This document shows positions 28,697-32,634 of a stretch of 64,000 nucleotides of DNA, one piece after another. This DNA comes from Saprospiraceae bacterium (GTDB lineage Bacteria; Bacteroidota; Bacteroidia; Chitinophagales; Saprospiraceae). The stretch covers positions 1-64,000 of the forward strand of contig JAHDHQ010000001.1 of assembly GCA_020631235.1 (NCBI GenBank), written 5' to 3'. Both the position numbers and the translations under genes were made by a program. Under the pieces are notes generated by a model. The model had not been told where the DNA came from, made no database searches, and saw only the letters and a program-made list of their open reading frames with translations. Every line of letters starts with the position of its first letter. Position 1 is the stretch's first letter.

Positions 28697-29671
28697 TTAT
28701 AACATTCCTAGAATGTCTAATATTTCTTCTTTACTTCTTTTTGTAGGTGAAATAGCGATTATTTCTTGTTCACCTGCGATTATATTTTTCATGCCAAGGT
28801 AATAATTATCATTTTCTAATGCACTAATTGTTACCACAGTTACTTCTTCATTTGCTGGTGTTAATCCTAATGATTCGCAAAATAGTGAATTCTCGCTATC
28901 CAGTTTTAACTCTTGGACAGAATTTAAATTATTAAATATCACATAAGCCTTAGTTAATGAACCACCTAATTGTTGGGGAACGTCGATACAAATACTTGTA
29001 TTTTCCAAGGCATCATTTCCGTAGTAACTTGAAATCCCCATCCAACCTACATTGTCAACAGTAAATTGGTAACCAAAATCACTCCAATTTTGACCGCTTA
29101 TATCATCATATTCCCAGTCTGTGTAATTTATTACTTCAGCGTTTATATTGCCTCCATTATAGTCTCCATCCAGATTCCATTCAATCAAATCAGAATCAGT
29201 CTCACCATAAAAGCGATAATAATCAATTGCAGCCTCTTCATAAGGAACTCTAAATATAACTTTAGAGCCAGGCTCAATAAAAACTTCCTGTCCATTTTGA
29301 GTAAATCTCAAATAATAATTAAAATTGGTCTCTAGCAATTTATTATCGGATTCAGTCTCTAAACCATAGATTGCCATAAGAGACTTATCTAATATTTCGA
29401 TATATTCTACATCTACTAAGCCAGTTATTTGTGATCCATTTTCGTCAGCGAGTATACCTCCAGGAATTGAGATGATCGTCCTGTTTTCAGTAACTATATC
29501 AAATGCTTGATCAGAATCAAATGATACTGTTTCGCCAAAATCCTGAATTTCAGCGAATAAGTTCGCCAAACTGGATTCATTGATATTCGGTTCGAAATCA
29601 TCTTGATCTTTGTTACAAGATGCGAAGATTAAGAGTGCAAAAAATAAGGTTGAATATAATAGTTTACTCAT
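28697..29671 (-). CDS. Hypothetical lipoprotein downstream of the sigma factor operon
   Basis: 324 residues, not recognised. A lipoprotein signal (MSKLLYSTLFFALLIFASC, lipidated Cys19) is followed by an acidic linker and beta-rich sequence including ISIPGGILADENGSQITGLVDVEYIE, the pattern of the carboxypeptidase-regulatory-like or ZU5-like domains that turn up in Bacteroidota surface lipoproteins. It is the third gene of a leftward set with the ECF sigma factor and the membrane-barrel protein, 24 bp after the latter. An envelope-sensing or surface role is inferred from that setting only. Confidence 0.7.
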   Translation of the reverse strand: MSKLLYSTLFFALLIFASCNKDQDDFEPNINESSLANLFAEIQDFGETVSFDSDQAFDIVTENRTIISIPGGILADENGSQITGLVDVEYIEILDKSLMAIYGLETESDNKLLETNFNYYLRFTQNGQEVFIEPGSKVIFRVPYEEAAIDYYRFYGETDSDLIEWNLDGDYNGGNINAEVINYTDWEYDDISGQNWSDFGYQFTVDNVGWMGISSYYGNDALENTSICIDVPQQLGGSLTKAYVIFNNLNSVQELKLDSENSLFCESLGLTPANEEVTVVTISALENDNYYLGMKNIIAGEQEIIAISPTKRSKEEILDILGML

Positions 29672-29695
29672 TATGCTTTATTTGGGTATAGGGAT

Positions 29696-31150
29696 TTACA
29701 AGATTGAATATTTGATGCCTATGGTTAGGGCAGGGTTCAAATAAGTTTGTTTTATTTGGTAACTATCGGTTGTTATTGTTTTAGGAATAAATTTAATTTG
29801 TGGAGAAGCATAAAAACTCATGACATCACCCAAGTGGTAGGTCGCTTGAATACCTGTCATAAAACTCATGCTAATTTTATCTGTGAATGCTTCGATACGA
29901 TCTGGTGCACTGGACGAAAACCAAACTGGTGTATTATCTTCATCAACAAAACGACCTTTTTGTCTAAAGCTAAAATTTAAAATAGCTCCAGCTTTTACTC
30001 CAATACTAAAATTAGGGTTTATGCCATAATCGTATCCTAACATCATAGGAAAGTTAAAGAATTTGTATTTGTTGTGTGTCACTATAGTTACAGCGCCTGG
30101 AATATCAATATAAGAAGTATCAGAATTTGCGATAATTTGTCCATCCATAAATAAAGTATCTATGGTGATAATCTGCGTTTTCTTTATGGTTTCAGGGTCC
30201 GTAAATGAGAATTTCTCTTGGATTTGAGAATATTGAAGACCCAATTCACCAAATATACCATAAGGTGTTTTTAAGCCAAAACCTGCTGCAAAATCAAAAG
30301 AATACTGTGTTTCTTCATATTGATTCCTTAGGTCTAAGTAATCCTCATAACCAGCTTCAGCCTCTAAAGACCTTTGAGGAAAAACATTGCCATACTCTGT
30401 CCACATATATGGAACCCAGACATCTTTATAAAAACTTGGACATTCTTGAGCTTTTCTTTTTATCACAAAAGGTTCTAATGCAATAAGTGAAGGTTCGGTT
30501 GGTTTAATATTGGTTTTTTTAGTGATGTGGTTTCTAGTTCCCAAGGATACATATGAATTCTTGTTTTGTTTATTTAGTATTAAATTTCCAAATAAGTTGA
30601 TTGAGTTTGTTTTTGTATTACTAAAGAATTCTTCATTTTCTTGAGTGAAATTTTTGGTGCTTCTATTCTCTGTTTTGTCTTTTGTATTGTCTACTACTGG
30701 ATTAGAATAAGCTTGATCTTTAATGTTTGCTTGCTGTTTAAACGTTTTAGTTTGATTATCAAAACGGTCTGTAATTACATGATCAACAGTATTGTTTTTT
30801 GTTTCTTTTTGAACAGAAGTTGTAGTTTGCTTTTGTTGGTTTTTTTTGTTGATTAAATTTTGGGCTACGGACTGATCTTTGCCGCTTACTTCTATTTCAT
30901 TGACTTGATCCATCAATTGCTCCGGTAAATTTGATGAGTCGGTTTTATTAGGTGGCACTAATGTCCAAAAGCAAAGGGCGGAAACGATTAATATGCCGAT
31001 ACCAGCGAGTAGAATCTTTGAGAATCCAATACTCCAGACAGGGGATTTATCTACTTGGTTAATTTCTCCACTTATATGTTCCCAGATCTTTGGGTTAACA
31101 TCTGACTCGTGATTTTCGAGTGATTCTTTAAATATATCATCAATATTCAT
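29696..31150 (-). CDS. Inner-membrane anchored protein with C-terminal outer-membrane beta-barrel-like domain; possible anti-sigma factor
   Basis: 484 residues. The first 40 are a cytoplasmic-looking segment (DDIFKESLENHESDVNPKIWEHI), then one membrane helix (about residues 46-66), then a long polar, Gln/Asn/Lys-rich linker (about 70-240). The C-terminal half resembles a PorT-type/outer-membrane barrel domain (FDFAAGFGLKTPYGIFGELGLQYS ... PALTIGIKYSIL). The gene overlaps the sigma-factor gene by 4 bp, the usual place of an anti-sigma factor. The layout would let one chain reach from cytoplasm to outer membrane. Barrel identity is from strand pattern only. Confidence 0.75.
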   Translation of the reverse strand: MNIDDIFKESLENHESDVNPKIWEHISGEINQVDKSPVWSIGFSKILLAGIGILIVSALCFWTLVPPNKTDSSNLPEQLMDQVNEIEVSGKDQSVAQNLINKKNQQKQTTTSVQKETKNNTVDHVITDRFDNQTKTFKQQANIKDQAYSNPVVDNTKDKTENRSTKNFTQENEEFFSNTKTNSINLFGNLILNKQNKNSYVSLGTRNHITKKTNIKPTEPSLIALEPFVIKRKAQECPSFYKDVWVPYMWTEYGNVFPQRSLEAEAGYEDYLDLRNQYEETQYSFDFAAGFGLKTPYGIFGELGLQYSQIQEKFSFTDPETIKKTQIITIDTLFMDGQIIANSDTSYIDIPGAVTIVTHNKYKFFNFPMMLGYDYGINPNFSIGVKAGAILNFSFRQKGRFVDEDNTPVWFSSSAPDRIEAFTDKISMSFMTGIQATYHLGDVMSFYASPQIKFIPKTITTDSYQIKQTYLNPALTIGIKYSIL

Positions 31151-31692
31151 CCAACCAACTTTTGTAGTTTTGCTAAATTCTTTTGAAGCATTTTTCGTGC
31201 TTTGACCAACTGAGATCTTGAAGTACTGGGTTTAATTCCGAGCAATTTTGAAATTTCATCATGGCTATATCCTTCTATGGCATACATATTAAATACAGTA
31301 CGATAACCTATAGGTAGGGATTGGATGAGTTTCATTAAATCTTCTGCTGATAAGTTTGAAAAGGCTATTGCCTTTTCTACGAGCTCGTTTTCTTGAGTAA
31401 ACTCAACCAATTCGTGTCGGTTAATTTTTTTTGTTACGTATTTGATACAAGAATGTACCATAATCCGTCTTATCCAACCTTCTAAGGATCCTTGAAATTT
31501 AAATTGGTGTAAATTCTTAAAAACTCTTATGAAACCTTCTTGCAGTAAATCTTCAGCTTCTATCATTTTCCCAGTGTACCTTTTACAAACAGAAAGCATT
31601 TTCATAGAAAATCTATCAAATAGCTGTTTCTGAGCAAAATGATCTTTCTCAAGACATTGCTTTATTAGCTCTTTTTCTGATAAACCATGCAT
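31147..31692 (-). CDS. ECF-type RNA polymerase sigma factor (sigma-70 family)
   Basis: About 181 residues from the ATG at 31692; a GTG five codons upstream is an alternative. Region 2 is seen in QLFDRFSMKMLSVCKRYTGKMIEAEDLLQEGFIRVFKNL, and region 4 in LPIGYRTVFNMYAIEGYSHDEISKLLGIKPSTSRSQLVKARK, with the helix-turn-helix. It redirects RNA polymerase to a small regulon. The next gene, overlapping by 4 bp, encodes a membrane-anchored protein that may hold it inactive. Confidence 0.93.
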   Translation of the reverse strand: MHGLSEKELIKQCLEKDHFAQKQLFDRFSMKMLSVCKRYTGKMIEAEDLLQEGFIRVFKNLHQFKFQGSLEGWIRRIMVHSCIKYVTKKINRHELVEFTQENELVEKAIAFSNLSAEDLMKLIQSLPIGYRTVFNMYAIEGYSHDEISKLLGIKPSTSRSQLVKARKMLQKNLAKLQKLVG

Positions 31693-31776
31693 ATGCAAAG
31701 GAGACACAGGAATAAATTTGTTTTCAGTTATATAGATACAGGAACTTAAAAAAAAGCTGCCTATTTGTTTATTTTT

Positions 31777-32634
31777 TTATTCTTCTTCAGAAATTATTGC
31801 ATCATCAATAAGTTCATTGCCATCTCCATCATGGTCTTCAAAACCAGCAGCAGGGCTCACATCTTTTTGAGGAATAGCTTTCGATGGTTCGTCAATAATA
31901 ACTTTCCCCTCAGACATCGCGTCATAATCCCCTTCAGCATATTTTGAAGCTTTGCTAAAGAAGTCGTCTGTCCCTTCTAATAAACTACCTGATGCATCTA
32001 ATGTATCATCAGCAAATTCTTTTTTAGGGTTTAATTTTTCTTCTGCTGCCAAGGCTTCGGCCTTCTCCATAGTTTCGTCAAATTTCTGTTTCATTTGACC
32101 ACCAACTTCCTGAGCTTTATCAACCATCAATTCTTTTGCGTCCATAACTTTCGAACCGATTTTCTCGCTTAAATCTCCACCTTTATCTAATATCTGCGAA
32201 CCTACTTTTTCTGACAGGTCACCAAACTTATCCAATGTTTCGCTTCCTTTTTCTTTAATTAAGCCACCTACATCTTCTGCAACATCCGAAAGTTTAGACA
32301 GGCCTTCACTTCCTTTATCCATGATAGTTTTGCCAATGTCTTCCATCGAATTTAAGCCTTTGTTCAATGTTTCATTATTGGTCACAGTATTTACACCTTT
32401 ATCAATTATTTGTTTTCCGCTTTCTAAGATGCTATCTGAACCATCCAGTATTGCATCTTTTAGCCCAGATGTTTTGTCCATTACGGTTCCTCCAATTGAC
32501 TCACTAAGGTCTTTACCTTTATTTAATAGTTCTGAACCTTGATCAACAATAATATCACCTGCTTTTTCTGATGCTGACTTCACAACAGATTCTCCAGCAA
32601 AAAATAATTTTTTTAATCCGCTTAAAAACCCCAT
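31777..32634 (-). CDS. Amphipathic repeat protein (LEA/apolipoprotein-like), function unknown
   Basis: 285 residues, with no signal peptide. Residues about 10-190 consist of repeated units near 22 residues long, of the form DKGSE.L.K..DLSE.VG..I.DKG, with hydrophobic residues in a heptad or 11-mer spacing, so long amphipathic helices are expected. The C-terminus is acidic (HDGDGNELIDDAIISEEE). Such proteins can coat membranes or protect proteins under stress; no family could be named. It is read divergently from the coiled-coil protein at 32706, only 71 bp away. Confidence 0.7.
   Translation of the reverse strand: MGFLSGLKKLFFAGESVVKSASEKAGDIIVDQGSELLNKGKDLSESIGGTVMDKTSGLKDAILDGSDSILESGKQIIDKGVNTVTNNETLNKGLNSMEDIGKTIMDKGSEGLSKLSDVAEDVGGLIKEKGSETLDKFGDLSEKVGSQILDKGGDLSEKIGSKVMDAKELMVDKAQEVGGQMKQKFDETMEKAEALAAEEKLNPKKEFADDTLDASGSLLEGTDDFFSKASKYAEGDYDAMSEGKVIIDEPSKAIPQKDVSPAAGFEDHDGDGNELIDDAIISEEE

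Follow-up and report, generated by a model that had tools for sequence, protein, structure and literature searches.

A probable Dma-type sigma/anti-sigma operon encoding a predicted envelope-spanning protein and a lipoprotein in a Saprospiraceae bacterium

Related signaling systems and genomic context

A single protein that joins the outer membrane to the cytoplasm is a rare answer to the problem of signaling across two membranes. One such arrangement, Dma/Das, is known phylum-wide (PMC13088901). Dma proteins have an N-terminal anti-sigma domain, a membrane helix, a disordered tether, and a C-terminal barrel, and the gene for an ECF21 sigma factor adjoins (PMC13088901). As cited by later work, Dma was originally described in 2024 (Pardue 2024 PNAS e2321910121). 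So far, Dma-type chains have been studied in one gut species. Dma2 of Bacteroides thetaiotaomicron is encoded in a three-gene operon, and knock-outs of Dma1 and Dma2 turn on a sigma-dependent response. The delta-dma2 phenotype requires das2, and the most strongly induced genes of delta-dma2 include some within and next to the dma2 operon (PMC13088901).

We analyzed an operon in a 64,000-nucleotide stretch (the window) of the 4.19-Mb genome of a Saprospiraceae bacterium (Bacteroidota). The ORF list places three genes on the minus strand, encoding an ECF sigma factor, a 484-aa protein, and a lipoprotein, in that order. The start of the 484-aa ORF (31150) lies inside the sigma ORF, whose last position is 31147, giving a 4-bp overlap; the lipoprotein gene starts 24 bp beyond the end of the 484-aa ORF. 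No protease gene occurs in the operon. Upstream lies a gene for a YtxH-like repetitive helical protein (31777-32634, minus strand). In another genome, a similar protein (MGMLNDLKKLLFG..., L126 ORF 3050-3951, plus strand) is encoded beside an orphan member of the lipoprotein family.

The operon most probably encodes a sigma factor and its anti-sigma factor of the Dma/Das kind, a classification based on its architecture and on the same barrel in Bacteroidales loci. Of the seven features that define Dma, four were confirmed here: a membrane helix, a disordered tether, a C-terminal barrel, and an adjacent ECF sigma gene. Compared by architecture, the domain order is that of Dma1/Das1 and Dma2/Das2 of B. 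thetaiotaomicron (Pardue 2026, PMC13088901), which also have the adjacent ECF sigma gene. Sigma, stub, and barrel occur together in two Bacteroidales loci (L088 and L101), and in a third (L100) with a weak stub. Two differences from the Bacteroides systems were identified. In the dma2 operon, the third gene (BT_1557) carries the annotation DUF4943, whereas the third gene here encodes a lipoprotein of a family without a Pfam match, and several loci in our samples carry repeated stubs (up to seven). The lipoprotein link, a cysteine preceding the barrel, and the repeated stubs appear to be undescribed in the literature searched, which excluded most subscription journals.

The host genome encodes at least five sigma/Dma-type pairs: that of the window and those at L002/L153, L003, L004, and L148. 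The operon had been singled out in a preliminary description as the most unusual regulatory layout of the window; this holds only in relative terms, given that the arrangement is known across the phylum (PMC13088901) and recurs within this genome. With five pairs in one genome, our data indicate that Dma-type pairs are common in environmental Bacteroidota. The fifth pair (L148:1417-3497), also with a 4-bp overlap, was missed by the search with the 484-aa protein and recovered through a search for the family OMP_b-brl_2.

The operon also resembles the FecI/FecR/FecA system, in which an inner-membrane protein relays the signal of an outer-membrane barrel to an ECF sigma factor. There, however, receptor and anti-sigma are separate and STN-joined, whereas the window encodes one chain with a small OmpA-type barrel, and none of the three proteins has a family match to FecR, STN, or a TonB-dependent receptor. 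Similarities to RpoE/RseA/RseB/DegS would include an envelope-state input, a single-helix anti-sigma, and a possible accessory sensor, but RseA, unlike the 484-aa protein, has no outer-membrane part. Family searches matched neither RseA nor RseB, and none of them identified the lipoprotein as RseB.

The ECF sigma factor

The Das-like sigma factor (186 aa; 31147..31707, minus strand) contains Pfam domains Sigma70_r2 (2e-14) and Sigma70_r4_2 (5e-16). Its start was previously placed at the ATG at 31692. A more likely start is the GTG at 31707, as it adds a leader that is kept within the genus, and homologues have an ATG at the same site (MSPL/MAPL). Specifically, the proteins of two congeners are 94% and 81% identical to it with a conserved start region, and both keep the leader MSPLHMHG and the GTG.

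In the sigma tree, genomes of the same family are intermixed with records named as Saprospiraceae and Chitinophagales, and one of them (G020) has a sigma factor identical to that of a Chitinophagales MAG; this makes Saprospiraceae, as GTDB defines it, the probable family. In that tree a record labeled Sphingomonadales (L059) clusters closely with L061, a Bacteroidetes record; L059 is probably a mislabeled MAG.

Anatomy of the 484-aa protein

The second gene (29696..31150, minus strand) encodes a predicted envelope-spanning protein of the Dma type, a prediction based on AlphaFold with 35 homologues (set A3), VIA-align/Foldseek comparison, and sigma adjacency. The model from the single sequence was uninformative (pLDDT 35). 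The preliminary description had proposed a cytoplasmic stub, one membrane helix, a long polar linker, and what looked like an outer-membrane barrel. The model agrees with each of these parts, and the check for a barrel in residues 240-484 returned an OmpA-type fold.

The stub comprises residues 1-36 (31043..31150) and is predicted to form two helices (H3-12 and H20-32), with pLDDT of only about 50-75. The stub HMM also marks this region, and its motif is (D/E)-x-x-F/h-x-x-x-L...P...h-W-x-x-I. The zinc-binding His/Cys motif of ZAS anti-sigma proteins was not found in the 36-residue stub, which has no cysteine. Residues 37-64 (30959..31042) are modeled as the membrane helix, predicted to be N-in by the positive-inside rule. 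Across 70 homologues the K+R count is 4.2 before the helix versus 1.1 after it, with more before than after in 66/70 and the reverse in none.

Residues 65-243 (30422..30958) form a predicted disordered periplasmic tether. The segment from 66 to 241 is rich in N, Q, S, T, and K and mostly has pLDDT below 50, specifically at residues 66-215 and 220-241. The sequence of the tether is poorly conserved among the 70 homologues, in which its length has a median of 176 aa and a minimum of 118. The minimum is as expected for a chain that has to span a periplasm. At about 0.36 nm per residue the contour would be roughly 60 nm, which should suffice to cross it. Matches to T2SSM and HpsJ were discarded, as they are weak, cover the helix and tether, and are composition-driven.

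The remainder (residues 244-484; 29699..30421) is predicted to be an OmpA/OmpW-like outer-membrane beta-barrel, with strands within residues 246-482 modeled at pLDDT of about 95. The closest solved structures to residues 240-484 are OmpA, NspA, and OmpW (Z 15-18; about 17 for OmpA). No significant PDB match was obtained by sequence, and the Pfam family OMP_b-brl (1.2e-5) falls just under the cut-off. The C-terminus carries a beta-signal-like motif, present in 64/70 homologues versus 27% of shuffled tails.

Sigma, stub, and barrel across genomes

Searching with the 484-aa protein recovered 33 loci, three of which are broken by contig ends and were set aside. An ECF sigma gene lies directly upstream in 30/30 of the others, mostly with a 4-bp overlap at the junction. 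A second scan of named genomes, seeded by the sigma factor alone, yielded 75 loci with a readable neighbor. The same barrel was identified in 40 of these neighbors, with one further marginal case. The stub, called at 10 bits or more, is present in 70/75 neighbors and in 0/696 other ORFs. Of the 35 A3 proteins used to train the stub HMM, 34 are among the stub-positive neighbors and one is the window's own, so about 36 of the positives are independent. As a control, we considered 12 OMP_b-brl_2 loci in the host genome: ten have no upstream sigma gene, and the two exceptions, L153 and L148, are both further Dma-type pairs. The sigma/Dma layout is not due to chance. The previously suggested association of the stub with sigma genes thus extends to homologues, and the original reading of one chain running from stub to barrel beside a sigma factor was largely right.

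In about half of the sigma neighbors the stub is present and this barrel is absent, so the barrel is dispensable for the basic role of the stub. Our data indicate that the stub is a module also found without this barrel.

The lipoprotein and the cysteine before the barrel

The third gene (28697..29671, minus strand) encodes a 324-aa protein of an unnamed family. Its lipobox (FASC19) confirms the predicted lipoprotein, with mature N-terminus CNKDQDDFEP and two conserved cysteines, C228 and C265. No match to the family was found in Pfam, NCBIfam, or PDB. Homology to NigD was considered and dropped, given the lack of a family match and the location of nigD1 (bt_4005) outside the dma2 operon.

Sampling at the family and order levels gave 29 full-length lipoproteins encoded downstream of a Dma barrel, all on its strand. 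Measured between profile matches rather than gene ends, 26 are within 400 bp of the barrel and three are at 450-525 bp. The other lipoproteins are orphans; the genomes of three of these, L126-L128, encode a Dma elsewhere. On the sigma tree, lipoprotein presence requires about ten changes, at least five of which are forced, so the trait is clustered but repeatedly gained or lost. The three-gene order is thus conserved in a subset of loci, and not throughout. Overall, the lipoprotein family recurs with one subset of Dma proteins.

Most Dma-linked lipoproteins have a mature N-terminus like C-x-K-D-x-D-x-F-x-P, which is seldom found in unlinked ones; these counts are rough, because the lipid cysteine of a few proteins was assigned to the wrong position. 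The N-terminus is similar to the signal C-X-K-(D/E)2-X for surface export in Capnocytophaga (PMC5080379), and this likeness suggests that the lipoprotein may be surface-exposed. Its N-terminal half also occurs in proteins whose C-terminal domains belong to the OmpA family or to TonB. Two proteins of about 600 aa (L142:1195-2985 and L143:1219-2937) have a short charged N-terminus and an apparent membrane helix, followed by the first domain of the lipoprotein. Perhaps these are another type of regulator that uses this domain.

The 484-aa protein has a single cysteine, C237 (30440-30442), in the tether just before the barrel. A pre-barrel cysteine was identified in 36/36 Dma proteins with a downstream lipoprotein (19/19 in the first sets and 17/17 in new loci) versus 13/50 without one (Fisher's p about 1e-13, phylogenetically confounded). 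As related loci are not independent, we treat this association as a lead and not as a test. Cysteines C228 and C265 of the lipoprotein are retained or lost jointly in nearly all loci and therefore probably pair with each other. A general disulfide between the lipoprotein and the Dma cysteine was considered and is unlikely, given this covariation and a lipoprotein (L045) with no cysteine apart from the lipidated one.

Proposed mechanism and alternatives

Building on the gene order, the conservation of the stub, and the modeled helix, tether, and barrel fold, we infer the topology in vivo, sigma binding, and release as follows. The chain would be anchored in the inner membrane by one uncleaved helix, and its cytoplasmic stub would keep the ECF sigma factor bound there. 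The disordered tether, of about 176 residues, would span the periplasm to the OmpA-like barrel in the outer membrane. The signal would be an event there, such as binding of a ligand or partner, displacement of the barrel, or its failed assembly. Tension, cleavage, or anchor loss could pass the change along the chain, and the freed sigma factor would transcribe its own operon and envelope genes. By analogy with the described systems, it is plausible that the 484-aa protein senses outer-membrane state. The stub is cast as an inhibitor because of the Bacteroides precedent. We consider this model as a whole, in which the stub restrains the sigma factor until a signal is relayed along a single chain from the barrel, very probable.

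For the lipoprotein we infer that the most likely role is that of a co-regulated target or a barrel partner. Tentatively, and with doubts that outweigh our confidence, we propose a three-part Dma, in which the lipoprotein would be a dedicated co-sensor, in the outer membrane or at the surface, that docks on the barrel via its short, acidic N-terminal stretch (K-D-x-D-x-F-x-P) and gates the release of sigma, with the pre-barrel cysteine participating in the switch. The stub module, the tether minimum, and the recurring lipoprotein provide concrete candidates for the input signal of Dma systems.

A variant of the restraint model is that the barrel monitors assembly: the signal would be its failure to fold and not a ligand, and the unassembled barrel would expose its C-terminal motif, leading to regulated proteolysis of the chain and release of sigma. 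RseA/DegS follows this logic, there not in one chain. A barrel tethered to an anti-sigma would by design report its own assembly, and the beta-signal-like C-terminus in 64/70 homologues fits. However, the operon encodes no protease, and the variant leaves the lipoprotein unexplained; we regard it as possible but rather unlikely.

The sign of regulation is not readable from sequence alone, and some FecR-type regulators activate their sigma factors, so the stub could be an activator, or a chaperone required for sigma activity, and not an inhibitor. This is very improbable, given the absence of a FecR or STN family match and the activation of a sigma-dependent response in Dma1 and Dma2 knock-outs of B. 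thetaiotaomicron (PMC13088901). Also very improbable is that the 484-aa protein is a usual outer-membrane protein whose N-terminal signal region is merely long, with a cleaved helix, no cytoplasmic link, and an overlap that only reflects co-expression. The barrel itself has a usual OmpA-like fold, and the window's helix contains the tripeptide VSA. However, conservation of the stub is confined to genes next to sigma, even in barrel-less proteins; the helix has an uncharged run of about 20 residues, with an [AV]xA site near its end in only 11/70 homologues; and no homologue has a tether below 118 residues.

Returning to restraint of sigma by the stub, one anti-sigma chain with repeated stubs may be able to hold several sigma molecules. 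Tandem copies were identified in several loci: seven in L040:5545-7572, four in L034:5531-7294, and two each in L057, L071, L093, L103, and L104.
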